This document shows positions 22,001 through 55,398 of a DNA stretch of 64,000 nt, piece after piece. Origin of the DNA: Sclerotinia nivalis (lineage: Eukaryota; Ascomycota; Leotiomycetes; Helotiales; Sclerotiniaceae); the NCBI GenBank assembly GCA_029531795.1, contig JAPEIS010000007.1, positions 62,001 through 126,000 on the forward strand. The letters run 5' to 3'. A program made the position numbers and the translations under genes. The notes beneath the pieces were generated by a model. That model worked only from the letters and a program-made list of their open reading frames with translations, searched no databases and was not told the origin of the DNA. Position 1 is the first letter of the stretch. Each line of letters opens with the position of its first letter.

Positions 22001-23360
22001 AAGGCATGGATGAACGGTGCTCGTGTGAGGTATACTATCCTTACGTGAATATTATCATATTGTAACTCTCGGTGCAGTTAGCAGGCAGAACTATCATATT
22101 TAATGCTTAGATATAAATGACCTCTGATCTATCAATCTAAAGCAAAAAAAACGTGGGTATGCAAGGCCTCCCAGAATATCAGACTATTCTTTTCACTCTC
22201 GGGAAGTTTTAAAGGATTTTAGTATCGAGGTGCTGTGGATAAATCTGGGATTCTATCACTTTTTTTTCTATTTTTCGGAGTTTAGGTTCAACTTTTGATA
22301 GTAAAAGAAAAGTTTTGATAGCTACAATCCGTATAATGATGATGAAATCTTGGTATTGGCAGCCATGGCTTTTTAAGAAGAGTATTTGATATGTTTGATA
22401 TAGGTCTTTGTCAGCGAGCATGGGATAACCTTCATTTTCCCATTCGCGGAAAACTGAGTTTGCAAATGGTGCGGACTTTGCAACCTCGGCGGGCGGACAT
22501 CTTTCTTCTATGGAATTCGTTAGGAGGAATTATCTTGGGTTGTGAGGATGCATTTATAATACGACGGAGAAAAGCAAGTATGAGGAATTATTTGATAGCT
22601 GATGGTGATGAAGGTCTATCTGGATAGAGTTCTAGTTCTCCTAGGTCTAATGAATCTAGTCATCCATAGGATAATTATCACTCTTTGAAATCATTCAAAT
22701 ATAAACACATCGTCGATTCTCAAGCCGTTGAAGCCGTGTTAAAATAATACACGGCGGCTGCTTTCTCCAGGGCTCCTGTCAACAAAGTAGTTAGAGATTA
22801 TTCCCATGAATTCCAGCCCGACTAACTTCTGGCAAGGAAGATATGGTTTGCTTTTTTAATCATTTATACAAAACATTAACAAGCTGAAAAGGGAGTTTGA
22901 TAATAAAAGCTGTGAAGTCATTTTCACAGGCAGGTGATGGTAAGTAATCCTTGACTTTGATGGTCAGATTTACTAGTATTGTTATCGTTTATGGCTTTGC
23001 ATCCACTGTCAGTGCTTGAGGGAAATATAATTGAAGTCCGTTATTGATCGATGATAGGAATGAAATATTGTGAGCAGGACAGTATTACTGTCTGGTAGTG
23101 GTTCGTTAGTCCTTGATTCTGTAATTAAGTAGTGCTGTTGGATTATTGGAAAGAGGAAGGTAGATGGACTTGAAATGCATGCTATACTTGATCATAGGGT
23201 TCGATTGCGGAAAATTAAGTGAGGAGTATGCATCTCATAAGCCTAAATTTCAGAGTGCTATATTCTGCCTCTTGAACTTTAGACCTGTGATTTTGTGTCG
23301 GTATTCTCGAGGCAGTCTGAGCTAAATTTAAAATTCTAGGTATAAAAGCTCATCTAGATT

Positions 23361-24445
23361 GATTGATTGATTGATTGATTTAACGTCCACACTGAGTCTA
23401 AGACTATCTAGGACGGCTAGGGGCTCTATGAGCTCCTAGTTGATACTATAAGGAGTTGTATACTAACTAACATACAGTTTGTATAGTTTGGATTTCTTTT
23501 CAACCTTTGAAATGTTGATTGAAAACAAGTGAAAACTAATACTGGAGAACAAAGCCCGATATCTTCATCTTCTAAGACCTTTCCTTCCTCGCTTTTTTCC
23601 TATTCTTTGTTAATTAAAGCATCCCATTGATATAATCTTTTTCTTCGATTCAATCTGCTATTCCGATACCCACTTCCCACAAAGGTCAAGAGTTATCTCT
23701 ATCAAGATTACCTTCAGCACAGCAAAAGGGTCTTCATACTAATGAAAAGCAATTGGGAGACATCACTCTTTTCAGTTCGAATTCATTCATTAGTTTCTTT
23801 GTATACCTTCTTAAGTATAATAATCTCTAGCTTTATTTGAATATAAATAATCGAAATTACCAAATAAAATATCAATCGTTTGAATATAATAATAATAGGG
23901 TGTAGCCTTAACCCTATCCATATACATACAAAAAATATTTTCGTAAAATCGAAGAAAAGATGTAATATCGTATCGATACCTAGAGTATAACATTAATTGA
24001 TAGATAATGGTATTCTTTGTTTCGTGATAATCGTAATATTAAAATGAATATATTTTCGATAATCGATTATCGAAAAAAGGTATAAAATACAAATAAAACA
24101 ATAACAAATTCCATATCGAAAAGATCCTTCTGAAATAGAAAGGACTTATTAGATATATTATACCTTATATTGAGATAATAATCGATAACAGATGTTGAAT
24201 CTAACCAGGGCTTCTGTAACCATCATCCGTATTTTGAGTTGATATTCGTTCATCCTTTCGAAGATATTGATGCTATAAAATCGTAATAACCCCTTCATCG
24301 TGAATATCATAATCGGGAAACCCTCTCTCTCTCTTCCAATATATCCGATTCCATCAAATGACTCAATCTTAGCTCTGCAGACTCTCAATAGAGAGCTGGA
24401 GGTTCGTAGAGGGCACCACGTACAGGTGTTGAGTCTTCGCCCTCC
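23361..24445 (-). mobile_element. Non-LTR retroelement copy A, short and non-autonomous
   Basis: About 1085 bp, sense on the minus strand. It is flanked by a perfect 14-bp direct repeat, AGCTCATCTAGATT, at 23347-23360 and 24446-24459, read as a target-site duplication. The 3' end (left) is an (AATC)n tail in sense orientation, overlapping the duplication. The 5' end (24445) begins with an HDV-like ribozyme, listed separately. It shares about 130-150 bp at the 5' end and about 170 bp at the 3' end with copy B, while the interiors differ. No reverse transcriptase or endonuclease frame is visible; the only ORF is a 76-aa frame (24388-24158) covering the 5' shared part. Terminal tail, variable-length duplication and 5' ribozyme point to LINE machinery, as in trypanosomatid SIDER-type derivatives. 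Confidence 0.82.
24360..24445 (-). ncRNA. HDV-like self-cleaving ribozyme, copy A (apparently intact)
   Basis: The first 86 nt of retroelement copy A fold into the nested double pseudoknot of hepatitis delta-like ribozymes. P1 pairs GGAGGGC (24445-24439) with GCCCUCU (24414-24408), a 7-bp helix with the family's G-U first pair. P2 pairs GACUCAA (24435-24429) with UUGAGUC (24366-24360), 7 bp. P3 pairs ACC (24427-24425) with GGU (24417-24415) around the 7-nt loop UGUACGU, and P3 abuts P1 as required. P1.1 can form from the AC after P1 and the GU at loop positions 2-3. P4 is a hairpin of CUC-CAG-CUCUC closed by a UAUU loop. J4/2 is CUAAGA, putting C at 24372 in the place of the catalytic cytosine. 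Predicted cleavage is exactly at the element's 5' end. Structure was drawn by hand. Confidence 0.82.
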
Positions 24446-26303
24446 AGCTCATCTAGATTCTGCTACTATCTTTATAGCAAAAAAGTCATTTGTCAAAAGA
24501 CAATTGATGCGAGCACTAATGCCTAGTATTTCGTAGCTCAAGATCCCACTCGTCTGAATGTAAGAGAATTTTGGAGCATGTAACCTTGAATTTACGCTCA
24601 TAGAGATAATGAAGATTGAGGTTTGACTGGAGTAGCAAAATATCGGCAAAGAGGAAGTATCTATGGCAGAGTAGGTATCTCGAGCTCATGATAATCATTT
24701 TATCGTGCTTGACCTACGCGACGTATCGGGTAGCCTAATTCTGGAAAACAGTTTACCTCATAAAGTGTGGCAGCTGAATAGAGTCTTTTAAATTATACCC
24801 TTGAGCGATGGAATGCACTATTGATATGGATAACAGTTCTTACTCTACTTGCATCTCACACATTTCACTTCACTCCACCATGCCTTGATGCAAACGTCAA
24901 ATCAGGGTATACTCTTTTTCCTAGAAGAATTGCTTGAGGTGAGGATTGGCTCATTTTATATCGGTTTAAGGATTTCTATACACGCCACAGCATTCTAAAT
25001 GTTACTTCGAAAGCTCATGAGCTATTTTACGGATGCAGGCTCTTCACAGATTACATCTTAAGGTATAAATATCATCCATAGTAGAGGAATTCATACGACA
25101 TGGTGATAATTTAGTAAGGTGCGTCGCTTACTCAGGAGGTGTATTCCTTAAATGACTTCGGTTACGAGCTAAGGGCGTGTAACCACATTGCAAATTACAC
25201 AGCCGTACAAGTTCTCACTGCCATATGGCATGACACTCTTGTATTGGATCGTGTTAGTAGATAGATTCATGGCAATAAGCAAGAGAGAAGACATATATAA
25301 TAAAAGAGAAGATACTGATGATGACAGTTCAATTTCTCGCTGCCGCATTCGGCATGAATTTCAAGCACTTAAGCTCCTGATAATCGGCGTAGTGTGTCTG
25401 TCACTGTGTCTTTAGTGTGCCAAAAAATAGTTGACAACAACAATAAACGCGGTTATAATAATTCAAATCAACAGTAAAGCTTACTAGATACCAATATCCA
25501 CAGCTCAAGTAACTTTATCCCCTACTTTCATAAAGAAAGCACTCACAATCCCATGACTTCCAAATCAAAACTATCAATGATTCGCGTAAAAAGCGAAGAA
25601 GAAAACCCTGCTTTGGAATTTGTTGGTGCAATTTTAGATCTATGATGATATCTCAAACGTGGGGTTTGAAAGAGATTTACATGGAGGCGTTGGAGAAGTC
25701 GACAGGTTCAAAAATTGCGGGGACTGGTGACATGAAAGAGGAGTTATTCGGGACAGCTTTGGATAGCTAGTGGAATTCCACTGAGCTCAAAAGAGTTGGG
25801 GGTGATACAAGTGGATTGACTTGGCCCATGAAAGTCAAGTTTTTTGATATATAATCACTCGCTCTTGGTTCCATTTTAGAAAATATCTCTTGCATTTCCT
25901 CTGTAATATAGTTTTCAGGGAAATCTTCCATGTCGTGGAAAACCTTAGACTGGATATAAACTCCGGTAGCACTCTGTTCTTGGGGAAGCATTGGGATCTC
26001 GGGGATGGGGGGTATTCAAACGTTTAAATCAGAAAATATTTGACAAAGAGTGTATTATAATATCGAAAACAATAATCTATCACTGGTACTGGCAATGAAA
26101 TGAAGGGAAATTTTTGGTCGATCGGACTAAAGATCTTTCGGAAAGGAACTGGATATGTGGACTCGGATAAAAAAGTCCTGTTGTTTTTTGTCATTTTATT
26201 ATTTTGAGGTATGTTCAGTTAGCCTGTTCTTTAGTATATTTATACTCCGAGATCGAAGGCTTGAACACCTCTTAGTAAATGCGGCAGAGTACTAATCATA
26301 TTC

Positions 26304-26396
26304 GGAGGACAAGACTCAACACCTGTACGCGGTGTCCTCTATGAATTTCCAGTTCTTTTATTTAATTATTAGAGTCTGTAGAGTTAAGTTTGAATC
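26304..26396 (+). ncRNA. HDV-like ribozyme, copy B (decayed, probably inactive)
   Basis: Same architecture as in copy A. P1 is GGAGGAC (26304-26310) with GUCCUCU (26334-26340): a G-C pair of copy A has become A-U by two changes, so all seven pairs persist. P3 (ACC/GGU at 26321-26323 and 26331-26333) is intact. The base replacing the catalytic C is U at 26384, P2' (26390-26396) now has one mismatch, and P1.1 has a G-U pair in place of C-G. Loss of the catalytic C predicts no self-cleavage. One base is missing in J1/2 relative to copy A. Confidence 0.7.
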
Positions 26397-27165
26397 ATTT
26401 GATGGAGTCGTGGTGATTGGAAAAGGAAGAGGTATTCGATCGCGATGTTTTTTGCCTTTGAGTTGGTTGATGGCAAAGGTCAGATCTTGGTTTTTTGATA
26501 GTTGTATTATCGGATTGTGCTTTCTACAATACTACTTTTATTATGAAATAGAGGACAATATTATTATCTATGATAATATATTATAAAATCATCTTCAAGA
26601 TTCCTTTGGGGTATCAAATACGATTTATCAAATTCGGTTTTAAGGTTCAGGCTTTACCTTTTTCGATTTGAATCAAAACAACAACAATTTATATACTTGG
26701 AGGAGCTGCGTGGAACGATTCGAGCTAATGATGTATCTGCTATAGAATTCGGTGGAGGATATATTATATATAGGATTGGGGTACTTTGTAGGATCAATAT
26801 CCCTATAGTTTGAAGAGTTCTATGAAGTCGATATTAGGCAAGGCATAATCGCTGGGAAGTTACGAATAGGACAAAGAGTTGATATGAAGGAAGGTTGTTT
26901 GGATTTGATTGATAGAGGGATCGGATTTGGAAAATTATAAGTGTAATACTTTGATTGGTATTTTTATCTTTATATGCGATGCTGTATAAAGGTCGGGCTT
27001 TGCTCTTCAGTATTAGTTTTCATTTCCTTTATCAAAAATATATACAAACTTGTATACTATTTAGATAGCACTACTCATAGCTATCTGTTAAGAACTCGAT
27101 TGGGCTCTTAACCGTCCTAGATAGTCTTTGATTCAGTGTGGACGTTAATTAAATCAATCAATCAA
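26304..27165 (+). mobile_element. Non-LTR retroelement copy B, short and non-autonomous
   Basis: About 862 bp, sense on the plus strand and so inverted relative to copy A. It is flanked by a perfect 14-bp direct repeat, TACTAATCATATTC, at 26290-26303 and 27166-27179, different from that of copy A, so it is an independent insertion. It starts with the same ribozyme-type sequence and ends in the same 3' region, with CAGTGTGGACGTTAATTAAA followed by (TCAA)n. The shared 3' block begins at about 26995 with TCGGGCTTTGCTCTTCAGTA. No long ORF remains. Differences from copy A in shared parts are mostly C/T and G/A transitions. Confidence 0.82.
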
Positions 27166-30100
27166 TACTAATCATATTCACCATTTTTGGTCGTGTACAG
27201 CTCCCCAATAGATCATCATGATATATTATATAAAAAGAGACTATTTATAGTTTAAAGTATTATCTCATTGAAATGGTATGCAAGCCACTGCTCTAAAAAA
27301 GACTGCTGAGTGATAGAGGTTTCTTTGAGGGTAATAAAGGGCGCTTGAGAAGGTGGGAATTCGACTAGATAATATACAAGCATCTATTCACAGGATTTCT
27401 TTCACCGAAGCAGGGAACAAAACTGATGCAGATAAGGGGATTAACAATAGCATCTCAGAGACACGGTAATAAGCGTTAGAGATCTGGAAAGCTTAGAGCT
27501 TTCGCTGAGCGTTGTCGGGGCATCGGCGCAAAACTTGTCACGACAAATTGACTCGGAGAAGTGTAGCTAGAGACTTGAAAGCCCGGATCTTCAAAAGTCT
27601 TAGTAGTCGGTGTTGAAACCTCTAGATACTTTCATTCTAGAAAAAGATATGTTTTCCAAATCAAAATTGACGGGTAAGCATCAAGGAATGACATTCGCGT
27701 TATGATGTATTAAAAATCCATTCTTCTGAGAATTTCAGATCCAAAACACGAAATTTTTAACATAAATTTGCTGAAGTTTCTACCTTTAATCATCAGAAAT
27801 TAACATGCGAAATAATTACAAGAAATAGGTCGCTCTGGAAATCACGCAATCCATTTTTTTGTGCTATGAGATTGGAAAATTCTCGGACCTTGACGGTTTT
27901 GTGGTGACCATTTAGAGCTCTACACTTGATATAATTACGATATGGTGACAGCGCTCATAGGATATTAGTGGATGCTGATGCATGAACTTACTGTCAGGTA
28001 TGATCATAAATAGAAATGACAGCAGTTAGTCAAAACGTAGAGTTACAAACGTACCCAATATTTCCGTTCCTCAATTCTTGAATTTACCCGGAAATTTGAG
28101 TTGACTAGGAGTACTGGACTTCTCACAACCCTCCATAATTAAGCAATATTTTGGTCTTGTACTTCCATTTTTATTGACTAATCTCAATCACACATAACGC
28201 TTATTTATATACTTAATATCTAGACTATAATAGCTATAGAATTGACGTAGGAATACGTCACGCTTTACGTCATGGATTTGGGATCATCCACCCCTCAACT
28301 CACTATCTTCGTAGCCTTTTAGAATGGATCACAAATTATAGTTCAGATTCCAAAGATTGGAAGATAAATGCTGGGCAATGAGAGGAATTGGTGATGAAAA
28401 CGGTACAGTAGAATGTGAACTTCTATCTTGATTGGAAATGGTGGAAGCGACAACGACAATAAGAATGATAAAAACCCTCAATTCTTCCTAGCAGACACAA
28501 ACTAACTCGTCTGACTTGCGCATGTAAGTATTTGATTGCATCTTAGAAAGATAACTTCAGTCCTGACGTACGTGTTGCATTTGACTAAGATGGTGGGTGG
28601 CCTTCCATATATACTCTCGGACCCGCTAGCGTAGAAATGACGAACTATCTTCCTCTGACATATAAAAAGTAAGATCTGACGAGATCGAGAGATTAGATAA
28701 TTATTTTTTGTAAATATATGTGATAGGTAAAAATATCTGCTTCGAATTATTGCAAGGTACGAAAAATTGTAATGTTTGTAGTTTTTTTCGATTGTATATA
28801 AAAATCTATGTCTGGTTCATATTTTGTAACATTGAATGTGTAGCATATATTTGACAGCAGAGAATCAAAATTTGTCAGTAAGAATTAATAGGAATCAAGA
28901 GTGATAATGAAAGTAGTGAATAATGTTTGCAATATCCTCCGGGAGTAAACCACAAGTAAATCAATAACTCTAAGAACAACTTGACAATCCTGGAAAGCAG
29001 CTGCTGACGGATCACCTCATACTTGATAGGGAGATTTTCATCTTGTACAATATGAAGTCTGACTCAAAGTATCATCAGCTATTTTATACTTCATTGGCTA
29101 TGGGATTCTCTTGGATTACGGAGGAAACACTAGCCGTGGATAATGCTCCGCTTCTGGTTTGCACTTGAACCAAACACTGCACGTACTACCAGATGAAAAT
29201 CAGAATATATAAGAGAATTTTTATGTTCCATAAGGCCAAGCGCTGATAAAGTGCCGAAGAAATACTGGTACATGGGAATCAGATTACACAAGTTCTGCAT
29301 TGTATGGTAAAGTAAAAGTTATGACTAGGCTCTTGCTTCAAGTTGTAGACAGAATGAAGCCTCCTGAGCTGCAAATGCCACTGCTATTTGACAACAACGA
29401 GAGAAAAATGTAGCTTAAAGTTACGACAACAACTTTTAACATATGACGATAACTTCATGATGACAATGGACTATTAATGAGGTCTCACACTCTGTCTGTG
29501 TCATTTAAACGAGCAAAGAAAAGCAGGGAAGAAGGAAGAGATATCGAAATTCCGAGCACATTCAATTGACTAAATTTTGTGATCCTGAAACGCGAAGGAG
29601 TACGTAGAGGAGGTACTCTTCATCGCAAATTCTGCAGTAACTCAATCATTATGGGTTAAAATGGATACTTTTTTATCCGTTTCTCAATTCTTTGTGTACC
29701 TGGCTATATAAGACTACAAAGAATCTAACGGCTAGATAGCCGAGGTGATCCTCAAAAATAAGCGAGGGATCTTCACAATTAGCACCTTCGCATGCTTTGA
29801 AGATTTTGCTGCTAGTATAAAAGAATTTATAGTCCACCATCTCAAATGTTCGAGCCATAAGACACACGGCGCTCTTCCGCTACTAGGGGGGATATTTGCT
29901 TTGTATATAGAAGCCATGGATACATATTTGATCCTTCAATGTCGAATAGGCAAGCCTTTTCATCACTGATTCTGAGAGAAAGGATGTGCAACGGTAACAA
30001 ATCTTCCTCAGGAAATAGCGTATATCGACAGCAAAAAAGAAATATCAACAATTACTTTTGGTTAAGGATGTGAAATGCCACTCGAAGAAAGCCGTGCAGG

Positions 30101-44305: not shown

Positions 44306-45226
44306 TTGGAGGATGGGAGAGGAATTGTACATATTTTGGGTCATCATAAAATGAATGGGCAACTTCGAGAACACCGACTGCAGTCTCAACATGGTGATGG
44401 AAGCATGATGTTTTCTTTGATATGCAGGGAAATATGGAAGGAATCGCAGTGCGTGCTTAGATCGGGCCGCATGTAGTACTCGTGCTGATATCATGATATT
44501 GCCTTGCCTGTATCAATATTGACCGGCGAAGTGATTATTGCAGCAGTTAGCACTCAAGGCAGTACATATCGAGAGCATTCCACTTGGCACCATATCATTT
44601 CGTTGCACCTCAAGGTTATACAACACAGCCCATAAAAGAACCCTTCAACCAGTCTCTCCTTAGGATTTGAGAGCATGTATCCATGATATTCCCTACTTTT
44701 CTGCTTTTACTAGATCCACACAATCAAAAATTACTTCCTCAGTCCACACAAATTCTGGTCTAGTGATAGTTGATAGGTCACTACTTATCAACAGTACAGG
44801 ATCTTCTTGGGAAAACTAGTACAAACATTCCTCCGCATATAGTATGGTTTGGATCTAATTACTTTCTTTGTATATTTTGCTTGTTCAATTTGATTGTCCT
44901 TGTATTTGACAAAGATAATCATCATGATAGATTTCCTCCGGATGTAGTATGGTTTGGATCTAATTACTTTCCTTGTGTATTTTGCTTGTTCAATTTGATT
45001 GTCCTTATATTTGATAAAGATAATCATCATGATAGATTTCCTCCAGATGTAGCATAGTTTTTAAAGAGGATGATGCAAAGCCCTTTTCCATTATCTAGCT
45101 TCATTTTCTTTATTCTCGATAACCTATTTACATAACTCATTCTTCTGTCAAATCCAGCATCCAAATAATCAATCTCAAAACATCGACTTCTCTCATCTCT
45201 GAATCTTCAAACCTATCGAAGCAACA
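44306..45226. other. Intergenic region with 105-bp tandem duplication
   Basis: About 0.9 kb between the small mitochondrial gene and the APH-like gene. Its second half is the tandem repeat listed separately; the remainder should hold the 3' UTR of the left gene and the promoter of the right one. No gene is called. Confidence 0.5.
44830..45056 (+). repeat. 105-bp tandem repeat, about 2.2 copies
   Basis: Units begin CCTCCG at 44830 and 44935 and CCTCCA at 45040. The two full copies differ at only a few positions, mostly transitions. The period equals 35 codons, and the frame is open through both units (44770-45057, 95 aa), giving a hydrophobic repeat (GSNYFPCVFCLFNLIVLIFD) with DKDNHHDRFPP. 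I have no evidence that it is translated. It ends about 170 bp before the APH-like start codon. Confidence 0.92.
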
Positions 45227-53962: not shown

Positions 53963-55398
53963 TGTAAAGAACAGATCTGGTTATCCTCAGGTGTGGTGTT
54001 AAGATCAAACCTAAAGCTGTGGTGGTTTGTTGTTGAAGTTAAAGAGGGGCGACGATAATGGGTTGCTGTGGTGTTGACAATCGCGAAATTTCAATTCAAA
54101 AGGAGAAATCGCGTGGAAACGCGTGTTGGGCGCGTAAAGTGGTTTTCATGACCCCGTGATTGAACCATCTTTATTCAATGATTCATGATATCAACATCAC
54201 GTGCACCACACAACCATCATCCGTACTTGAATCGAATTCCCCATTACATACAGTTCTTCTCAACGAAATTTAGGACTCCACAGAACTATGCGAATTCCTG
54301 CAAATTGTCTGATATCGATATACGCCATGAAGTACTCCAGCCATTAAAATCAACTCAACAAATCTACAAGACTCAACCCTCTTCATCAAGTTCGCAACAA
54401 AGCTACTGTATATTCTACTCTTGTCTCTACTCTTGTATCCCCTTGACTCGACCTAGGCTTTTATCTGGAGATTCCTTCGTTGTAAGACTTACTTTCATGA
54501 TAATGGTGTATATACATATAGTCAATTCGGTAGGTACTATATATCTTTCTCTTAAGCCTCCATTTCATTTGAATCGATTCGATTTTCCAGATCTCAGAAG
54601 TCAATTCGGCCCATTCCAACTATACCCGCTATTTTCGCTCCTGAAGTACTCCATATTAGATATTAGACAAGATCAAACTGAAAGTTTGAATTGACTCTCT
54701 GTCAGTGAACTACCAATCTCTGTTCTTTGAATATTTAAGTTCTTACTCAGACTCAGTGTTCGTTTCTGAAATATATAATATAAAGTCTGTTTGCATATGA
54801 ATTCTCTTTTGCTCTCAGGAATAGTGAGAAAGTATCAATCTTATATTCCTTCAATATAGTAATTTTATCTCCATGATGATTTAAGATTAGAGCAAGATCA
54901 AATGAACTATTCGAGATTCAAAAACTTTTTTGATCACACACCAAATAGTATCCATATACTTCACTCTTTCTTTTCCATCAAACTGATTGATTGATTGATT
55001 GATTAAATTAACGTCTACACTGAGTCTAAGACTATCTAAGACGGTTAGAGGCTCTTTATGCCCAGTATAATAGTAAATGGCAGAACATTTCTTAAACAAG
55101 GAACCTTCCTATCACCCATACTAGATTCGTATTTCTATCACCTATAGCTTCACTCAAGCCCCTGATGAATCCCAGCGCAATTTAATCTTCATGTATGGAT
55201 GTGTCTATATGGGGTCATTTGTTTGACCTACTTTGCATCCCTTTCCATCAGTCTGAAAAACAGTCAATTGTCATGACATCAATTATATAATCTAATCAAT
55301 CGTCTATCTGGAGCCCCTTGTTATCATCTACTTCTCCCCCATTCCATTAATTGAGATAGATCCCCCTCTAAACAATCCAACAATCCCACACACAATAT
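53963..55398. other. Intergenic region with retroelement fragment
   Basis: About 1.4 kb between the MCM3 start and the MAK32-like stop. The left part should hold the MCM3 promoter. A 169-aa plus-strand ORF at 54185-54694 has no recognisable motif and biased composition; I do not call it. A truncated retroelement copy lies at 54984-55062. Confidence 0.5.
54984..55062 (-). mobile_element. Truncated 3' end of the same non-LTR retroelement (copy C)
   Basis: An (ATTG)n tract (about 54984-55004 on the plus strand) runs into AACGTCTACACTGAGTCTAA and GACTATCTAAGACGGTTAGA, matching the 3' end of copy A with a few C-to-T type changes (for example GGACGGCTAG has become AGACGGTTAG). Homology fades after GGCTCTTTATG, so only about the last 80 bp are present, as expected for a 5'-truncated insertion. 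No convincing target-site duplication was found. Confidence 0.78.

Follow-up and report, generated by a model that had tools for sequence, protein, structure and literature searches.

The minus strand of the window (the whole 64,000-nucleotide stretch of Sclerotinia nivalis DNA analysed here) carries, at 24445-24360, the fold of an HDV-like (delta) ribozyme. We read this segment, with a probability of about 0.86, as a ribozyme that is predicted to cleave itself and in doing so to make the exact 5' end of a non-autonomous, SIDE-like retroelement. Sequence comparison within the window and across the genome supports this interpretation, which a sequence-only reading of the same stretch had put forward.

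An HDV-like fold at the 5' junction of elements A and B

The claim was that all pairings of the delta fold lie within 86 nt here, with a C in the catalytic place; these pairings can be read off the sequence directly, and every pair is a standard one. The ribozyme of element A spans 24360-24445 (minus strand; ribozyme position n is 24446-n), with cleavage predicted between 24446 and 24445. P1 has 7 bp, the first being G-U, between GGAGGGC (24439-24445) and GCCCTCT (24408-24414). J1/2 is GAA. P2, also of 7 bp, joins GACTCAA (24429-24435) to TTGAGTC (24360-24366). P3, with 3 bp, abuts P1 and forms the hairpin ACC-TGTACGT-GGT (24415-24427), in which L3 is TGTACGT. Positions 2-3 of L3 (GU, 24422-24423) pair as P1.1 with the AC right after P1 (24406-24407). 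The P4 hairpin lies at 24373-24401 and J4/2, CTAAGA, at 24367-24372. Its first base, C74 at 24372, is the predicted catalytic C by analogy with the family, C75 being listed for HDV. The nested double pseudoknot of P1, P2, P3, P1.1 and P4 was found in five head families (A, B, D, E and F), in all of which C starts J4/2.

Element A (23361-24445, minus strand) is a 1,085-bp retroelement without a long open reading frame; the longest stop-to-stop sense frame in a little-mutated copy, L042, has 96 aa. Its 3' module (23361-23559, minus strand) is common to LINE families C and E and ends in an (AATC)n tail at about 23361-23381. A 14-nt target-site duplication, AATCTAGATGAGCT, lies at 24446-24459 on the 5' side and at 23347-23360 on the 3' side (both minus strand). 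G1 (24445) directly follows it, and the predicted cleavage site is indeed, as had been proposed, the first base after the duplication. The element is non-autonomous and not a full LINE. With a 5' ribozyme, a LINE 3' end, duplications and no long reading frame, A has the composition of a SIDE.

The second family, element B, is represented in the window by an 862-bp non-autonomous copy at 26304-27165 (plus strand), flanked by 14-nt duplications (26290-26303 and 27166-27179). While the body is its own, the 5' ribozyme, the 3' module and the (AATC)n-type tail are of the kind found in A. The two elements correspond at the 5' end over about 145 nt, at the 3' end over 200 nt and internally over a stretch of about 80 nt. 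The ribozyme of the window B copy (26304-26396, plus strand) is decayed by C>T/G>A changes and reads T at the catalytic position, at which most other B copies read have kept the C. A lone 3' module with tail, 91% identical to A, lies at 54989-55055 (minus strand) and is the remnant of a 5'-truncated element.

The junction was analysed in 42 copies, namely the two of the window and 20 fetched copies of each family, picked by 5' identity from 40 listed. All 40 fetched copies align over the whole or nearly the whole element. Duplications of 11-16 nt, searched with boundaries within 4 nt of G1, flank 39 of the 42 copies and are lacking in three. They end exactly before G1 in 23 cases and leave one extra base in six; the remaining ten run 1-3 bases into G1-G2-A3 and are ambiguous, the downstream copy repeating G, GG or GGA. 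To within one base, a junction at G1 is compatible with all 39. The predicted cleavage site is therefore the 5' junction of A and B, as it also is in families D and E.

The structure-aware check suggested earlier gave a complete alignment but a low score. RF02682 (HDV-F-prausnitzii) is matched over its whole length, its position 1 falling on G1 (24445). The 22.6 bits reached (E 0.021 when 201 bases were searched) compare with a gathering score of 44. The module D head, described below, also aligns from position 1 at G1, with 22.2 bits. L3, P3 and J4/2 of A are much like those of RF02682, whereas P4 is longer. At the gathering score, of which A and D reach about half, the window contains no match to HDV-like families. 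Neither the scan of the whole window by E-value, in which the ribozyme site is not listed, nor that of seven loci (nothing up to 0.5) retrieved it. RF02682 found nothing at E 0.001 in the host genome and likewise nothing in control genomes, so that this search is uninformative. A model of our own, R2, was built from A and D, whose scores with it hold by construction. It assigns 70 bits (E 6e-13) to the window B copy and 28.9 bits (E 4e-4) to the E family, the E-values being rough. As a negative control, 80 of 102 viral stretches with the sequence pattern were searched; model R2 gave no match at the pattern sites and at best 18.7 bits elsewhere. Candidate ribozymes from pattern scans of viral and prokaryote contigs (for prokaryotes, among the matches listed) were discarded, as they look like chance by the estimated pattern frequency.

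Covariation and genomic copies of the ribozyme heads

The five head families differ in the sequences of P1, P2, P3 and P4, and in a hand alignment all helices are present and all pairs standard in each of them. P1 is GGAGGGC/GCCCTCT in family A and GGAGGAC/GTCCTCT in family B. Family D (L082 and others) has GGGATGC/GCATCCT in P1 and GATTCAA/TTGAATC in P2, while family F, a single copy (L109), combines the P1 of D with a P2 of GACTCT/AGAGTC. Family E (L085, L108) has GGCCAGC/GCTGGCC, AATCTCA/TGAGATT and GCC/GGC as P1, P2 and P3. P1.1 is GU/AC in all five families and, being invariant, shows no covariation.

Alignment A4 (16 rows, 12 of them distinct) was fitted by a model to P1/P3 and part of P4 and leans to structure. 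In its distinct rows 93.5% of the cells pair, compared with 79.3% in 500 shuffles and 32-39% with slid partners. Eleven pairs changed on both sides, a number reached by three of the 500 shuffles, and the covariation score was 0.501 versus 0.197. The count of further pair types was not above that of the shuffles, 330 of 500 reaching the observed value. P2 is the weakest helix in A4 (core 78% paired), the E rows and the row of a decayed head, L102, being misaligned or broken; family E, with its shorter J4/2, pairs fully only in the hand alignment. Young copies that break P1 or P2 without compensation had been named as evidence against the ribozyme. The opposite was seen, related families keeping both helices through paired changes.

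L3 and the stretch ACGAACCT after P1 are kept across families, and these were exactly the target of a core-pattern search of the genome (50.3 Mb, 31 contigs). The pattern CCTGTACG-N7-16-ACGAACCT occurs at 137 places and its reversed control at none. Among the 100 places listed, 48 are A-like, 38 B-like, 12 D- or F-like and two E-like.

A strict descriptor (P1 7, P3 3, P1.1 2, P2 6 or 7, a 5-bp P4 and C-N-R-A before the 3' strand of P2), applied to both strands of the window, matched at 24445(-) only. In 60 dinucleotide shuffles it found 0.27 sites per window. The fold alone is thus expected about once in four 64-kb windows and is not decisive; what gives it weight is that it coincides with the element boundary, together with the core matches and the covariation. 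This background rate is what a chance fold at a repeat boundary has in its favour. We regard such an origin as extremely improbable, since it is contradicted by the covariation of five families, by the start at G1 in the four families whose boundary was examined (A, B, D and E, not F), and by 137 core matches against none.

The conserved 80-90 nt might also act mainly at the DNA level, as an internal promoter with its start at G1, the fold being secondary. The retention of L3 and ACGAACCT would fit a promoter, and in trypanosome L1Tc the 77-nt Pr77 serves as promoter and as HDV-like ribozyme at once (PMC4035085), showing that both roles can share one stretch. With promoter function alone, however, pairing in P1, P2, P3 and P4 would not survive two-sided changes. 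Within the mismatches allowed, no A-box/B-box pair was found near the 5' end of A, and B has weak boxes only, at 100 and 341/362. Rfam at the gathering score detected no tRNA family in the window. We consider a primarily promoter-like signal quite unlikely and retain the ribozyme as the main function of the head.

The ribozyme could, alternatively, be a relic that once processed these elements and no longer cuts in present copies. The bodies of many copies are heavily mutated. With tail columns counted, C>T and G>A account for 929 of the 1,074 differences between copies in A and for 544 of the 773 in B; they mildly favour CpA, which we take to be the pattern expected of repeat-induced point mutation. 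The loss of the catalytic C in the window B copy would also suit a relic, as would a strong competing helix in the window A copy. There, and in this copy only, a chance flank, GAGCT, extends GGAGG/CCUCC, a helix that competes with P1, to 10 bp (24441-24450 with 24393-24402). With 20 nt of flank the predicted minimum free energy, from folding that ignores pseudoknots, is -39.6 kcal/mol with the competing hairpin, compared with -25.9 to -31.7 in four other copies; of these, L042 and L050 keep P1/P3, whereas in L048 and L054 the competitor appears with its core of 5 bp. A transcript of 24460-24350, as proposed for an assay by the sequence-only reading, could give a false negative because it contains the GAGCT flank and with it the long competing helix.

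Against a relic stands the state of the heads themselves. Among the best 40 of 171 genome matches to the A ribozyme, 34 are identical over all 86 bases, and six match over 85 bases or at 99%. A further sample, the best 40 of 462 candidates for the last 120 nt of A, was chosen independently of the head. In 31 of the 40 the core pattern or a near-perfect head lies at the expected distance. In three more (L111, L113, L116) the head starts at G1 and differs by one or two C>T/G>A changes over 60 nt, so that 34 keep the head at the expected place. Five (L110, L112, L114, L115, L117) have none there and are truncated or other elements with an A 3' end; one lies at a contig end. Furthermore, ten of the 40 fetched copies (L042, L048, L050, L054, L065, L066, L070, L071, L072, L077) are changed at less than 2% of their C>T/G>A body sites. 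That the present copies have lost cleavage appears very unlikely, and we keep to the predicted self-cleaving ribozyme.

In the window A copy, C>T/G>A changes affect 109 of 413 G/C sites of the body and none of 46 in the ribozyme. Both ends of A and B are low in such changes, although the 5' part is biased by the choice of matches and the 3' part is not. An edge effect, match choice and selection are candidate causes of this sparing. We do not claim that mobilization after C>T mutation cleaned the ends: in most pairs of heavily mutated copies the number of shared sites is about double that given by uniform chance, and shared sites fit hot spots as well as common descent.

LINE partners and the chimeras of module D

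LINE C (L081) encodes an ORF2 of 1,319 aa with endonuclease, reverse transcriptase and RNase H domains (Pfam). It carries the 3' module and tail of A and B, with 84% identity to A over 95 nt. Comparison with L084, L087 and L092 located its 5' end, at which no ribozyme was found. LINE E (L085 and L093, read as two separate stretches) combines a C-type 3' end with a ribozyme head, and both E copies continue past the same point into LINE sequence. The two copies of the E head share sequence from G1 on and not before. A 5' end 188 nt upstream, at a 30-nt repeat, was ruled out, the second copy (L108) being homologous from G1; nor is the 30-mer a boundary repeat, as it lies in a repeat that also adjoins L108. 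The A head resembles the module D head more than the head of LINE E, from which it is far removed, and among the LINEs read none has the A-like head expected of an autonomous parent that gave rise to A by internal deletion. As they join a ribozyme head to a 3' end that a LINE would recognize, A and B resemble the hybrid SIDEs of Drosophila.

The ribozyme-free 5' ends of LINEs C and D (L081 5' end and L088:1276) both contain the motifs AATTT and TTCGAA in roughly the first 40 nt. Another, third type of LINE, with an equally scoring reverse transcriptase and 1,265-aa reading frames, occurs in the genome (G000) on contigs C19-C22 and C26, and also on C9 and C16, several of its copies lying on short contigs; L083 is the copy that was looked at, and the type may be linked to chromosome ends or rDNA.

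The D ribozyme heads a module of 1,207 nt. Its 343-nt head has 39 genome matches, several of which are partial or are heads of family A. Each of the 12 module D loci read, whose flanks are unrelated, aligns from G1 on, except L102, which differs in its first two bases and aligns from base 3. The end of the module was read in 18 copies, the 12 loci, which include L082, and six others. In 16 of the 18 it runs on, in sense, into the coding part of a LINE; the implied LINE position differs in all 16 and is approximate in distantly related LINEs. The junctions lie within about 10 nt of the same module end, and the partners are C-type, D-type or related LINEs. Of the two other copies, L099 is interrupted by another insertion and L120 did not align at the module end. 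L082 (5.9 kb), the one chimera followed as far as its 3' end, has the 13-nt duplication TGAAAACTGGCTC on either side of the whole unit, directly before G1 at the 5' end. L082 is a chimera of module and LINE and not an ordinary D-family LINE; the 5' end of other D LINE copies is unrelated to its own.

Module D therefore shows the anatomy of a MINE, a 5' module fused in sense to 5'-truncated LINEs with a variable truncation point. Template jumps during LINE reverse transcription would account for this. DNA recombination or nested insertion could produce junctions as well, repeats being dense, L099 being interrupted by another insertion and the duplication being verified for one chimera, the sole one read to its 3' end. 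Such events would hardly join the same module end, within 10 nt and in sense, to 16 different LINE positions in 16 of 18 copies, or leave L082 flanked as one unit. Variable truncation point, same orientation and flanking repeats are, moreover, among the listed features of template-switch chimeras (PMC2104539). We judge recombination or nesting unlikely and favour template jumps. The common module end in 16 copies is at most suggestive of a 5' part that is a full-length copy of a cellular transcript. The arrangement suggests that a non-coding ribozyme RNA may spread by hitching onto larger jumping genes.

About 100 nt from a D copy and in opposite orientation, L102:1944-2032 holds a decayed sixth ribozyme-like head (26.2 bits with model R2).

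A proposed route of spread and its relation to known systems

An element copy would be transcribed by read-through inside a host transcript. Judging from fold and family, the RNA would form the nested double pseudoknot and cut before G1, leaving an RNA with a 5'-OH; most likely, host co-transcripts are trimmed by the ribozyme to the exact 5' end in this way. The 3' module and (AATC)n tail of the freed RNA, which LINEs C and E have as well, would then be recognized by a LINE reverse transcriptase, although which LINE mobilizes A and B is itself an inference, their uptake being deduced from the shared LINE-like 3' end. The enzyme would copy the RNA directly for A, B and E. Module D, which is without that 3' module, would ride by a template jump in LINE reverse transcription, as its junctions indicate. 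The new copy is inserted with an 11-16 nt duplication and again starts at G1.

Much of this has precedent. Ribozymes of the HDV type at the 5' ends of LINEs are known already, as are SIDEs and MINE, and fungi as hosts are not new. The LINEs R2, R4, Dong, baggins and L1Tc carry HDV-like ribozymes that cleave at the element 5' junction (PMC3774820). The fold is the same here, but the host is a fungus, no single insertion site is fixed, Rfam scores are low, and the ribozyme heads two SIDE-like families, the LINE lineage E and the template-jump module D. The R2 SIDE and R2/R1 hybrid SIDE of Drosophila are non-autonomous, with a 5' HDV-like ribozyme and a LINE 3' end; the hybrids join the ribozyme of one element to the 3' end of another and have 14-bp duplications (PMC3414825). 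In contrast to these, A and B are dispersed and not in rDNA, measure 0.86-1.09 kb and have at least 40 copies of each head. Trypanosome NARTc and RIME are short LINE derivatives that keep the 5' ribozyme hallmark shared with their LINE (PMC4035085), whereas LINE C shares its 3' module with A yet begins without a ribozyme.

The closest counterpart of module D is the Magnaporthe MINE, where template switching has fused WEIRD, a full-length RNA of 1.1 kb, to MGL LINEs truncated at the 5' end (PMC2104539). Both have a non-coding 5' part of about 1.1-1.2 kb joined in sense to 5'-truncated LINEs at many points. Module D differs in beginning with a predicted ribozyme and is known from DNA alone; it is likened to WEIRD by anatomy, not by sequence. 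A count of the word ribozyme in the MINE paper gives 0 (PMC2104539).

The sequence-only reading knew of no described case in this fungal lineage. A fungal HDV-like ribozyme is already in print (PMC3774820, citing Webb and Luptak 2011), but our literature search, whose coverage left out most subscription papers, came upon no account of HDV-like ribozymes in LINEs, SINEs or MINE of fungi, nor of a multi-family fungal ribozyme system or its tie to template-jump chimeras. We tentatively propose, as an idea that may well prove wrong, that ribozyme-headed non-coding RNAs form a fungal class of LINE parasites of their own. Their exact, self-made 5' end could permit repeated end-to-end capture by template jumps even of an RNA that has no LINE 3' end, as in module D; capture near a LINE 3' end might yield the self-spreading A and B or LINE E; and WEIRD could be a member. 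If this link is true, the nature of WEIRD is directly testable and template jumping would be a regular route of spread for a self-trimming RNA. The findings indicate that a fungal genome contains an HDV-like ribozyme system, high in copy number and intact in appearance, in LINEs as well as non-autonomous elements, with natural compensatory variants at hand for assay. They also connect two literatures that our search did not find linked, on LINE 5'-end ribozymes and on template-switch chimeras of the MINE/WEIRD type.

Elsewhere in the window, nine of ten reading frames matched Pfam, among them an OPT transporter, Exo70, PLA2_B, carnitine acyltransferase, La/RRM, MCM3-like and PfkB domains, in keeping with a fungal nuclear genome. 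Two overlapping 128-bp direct repeats, offset by 105 bp and 93% identical, lie at 44828-45060.
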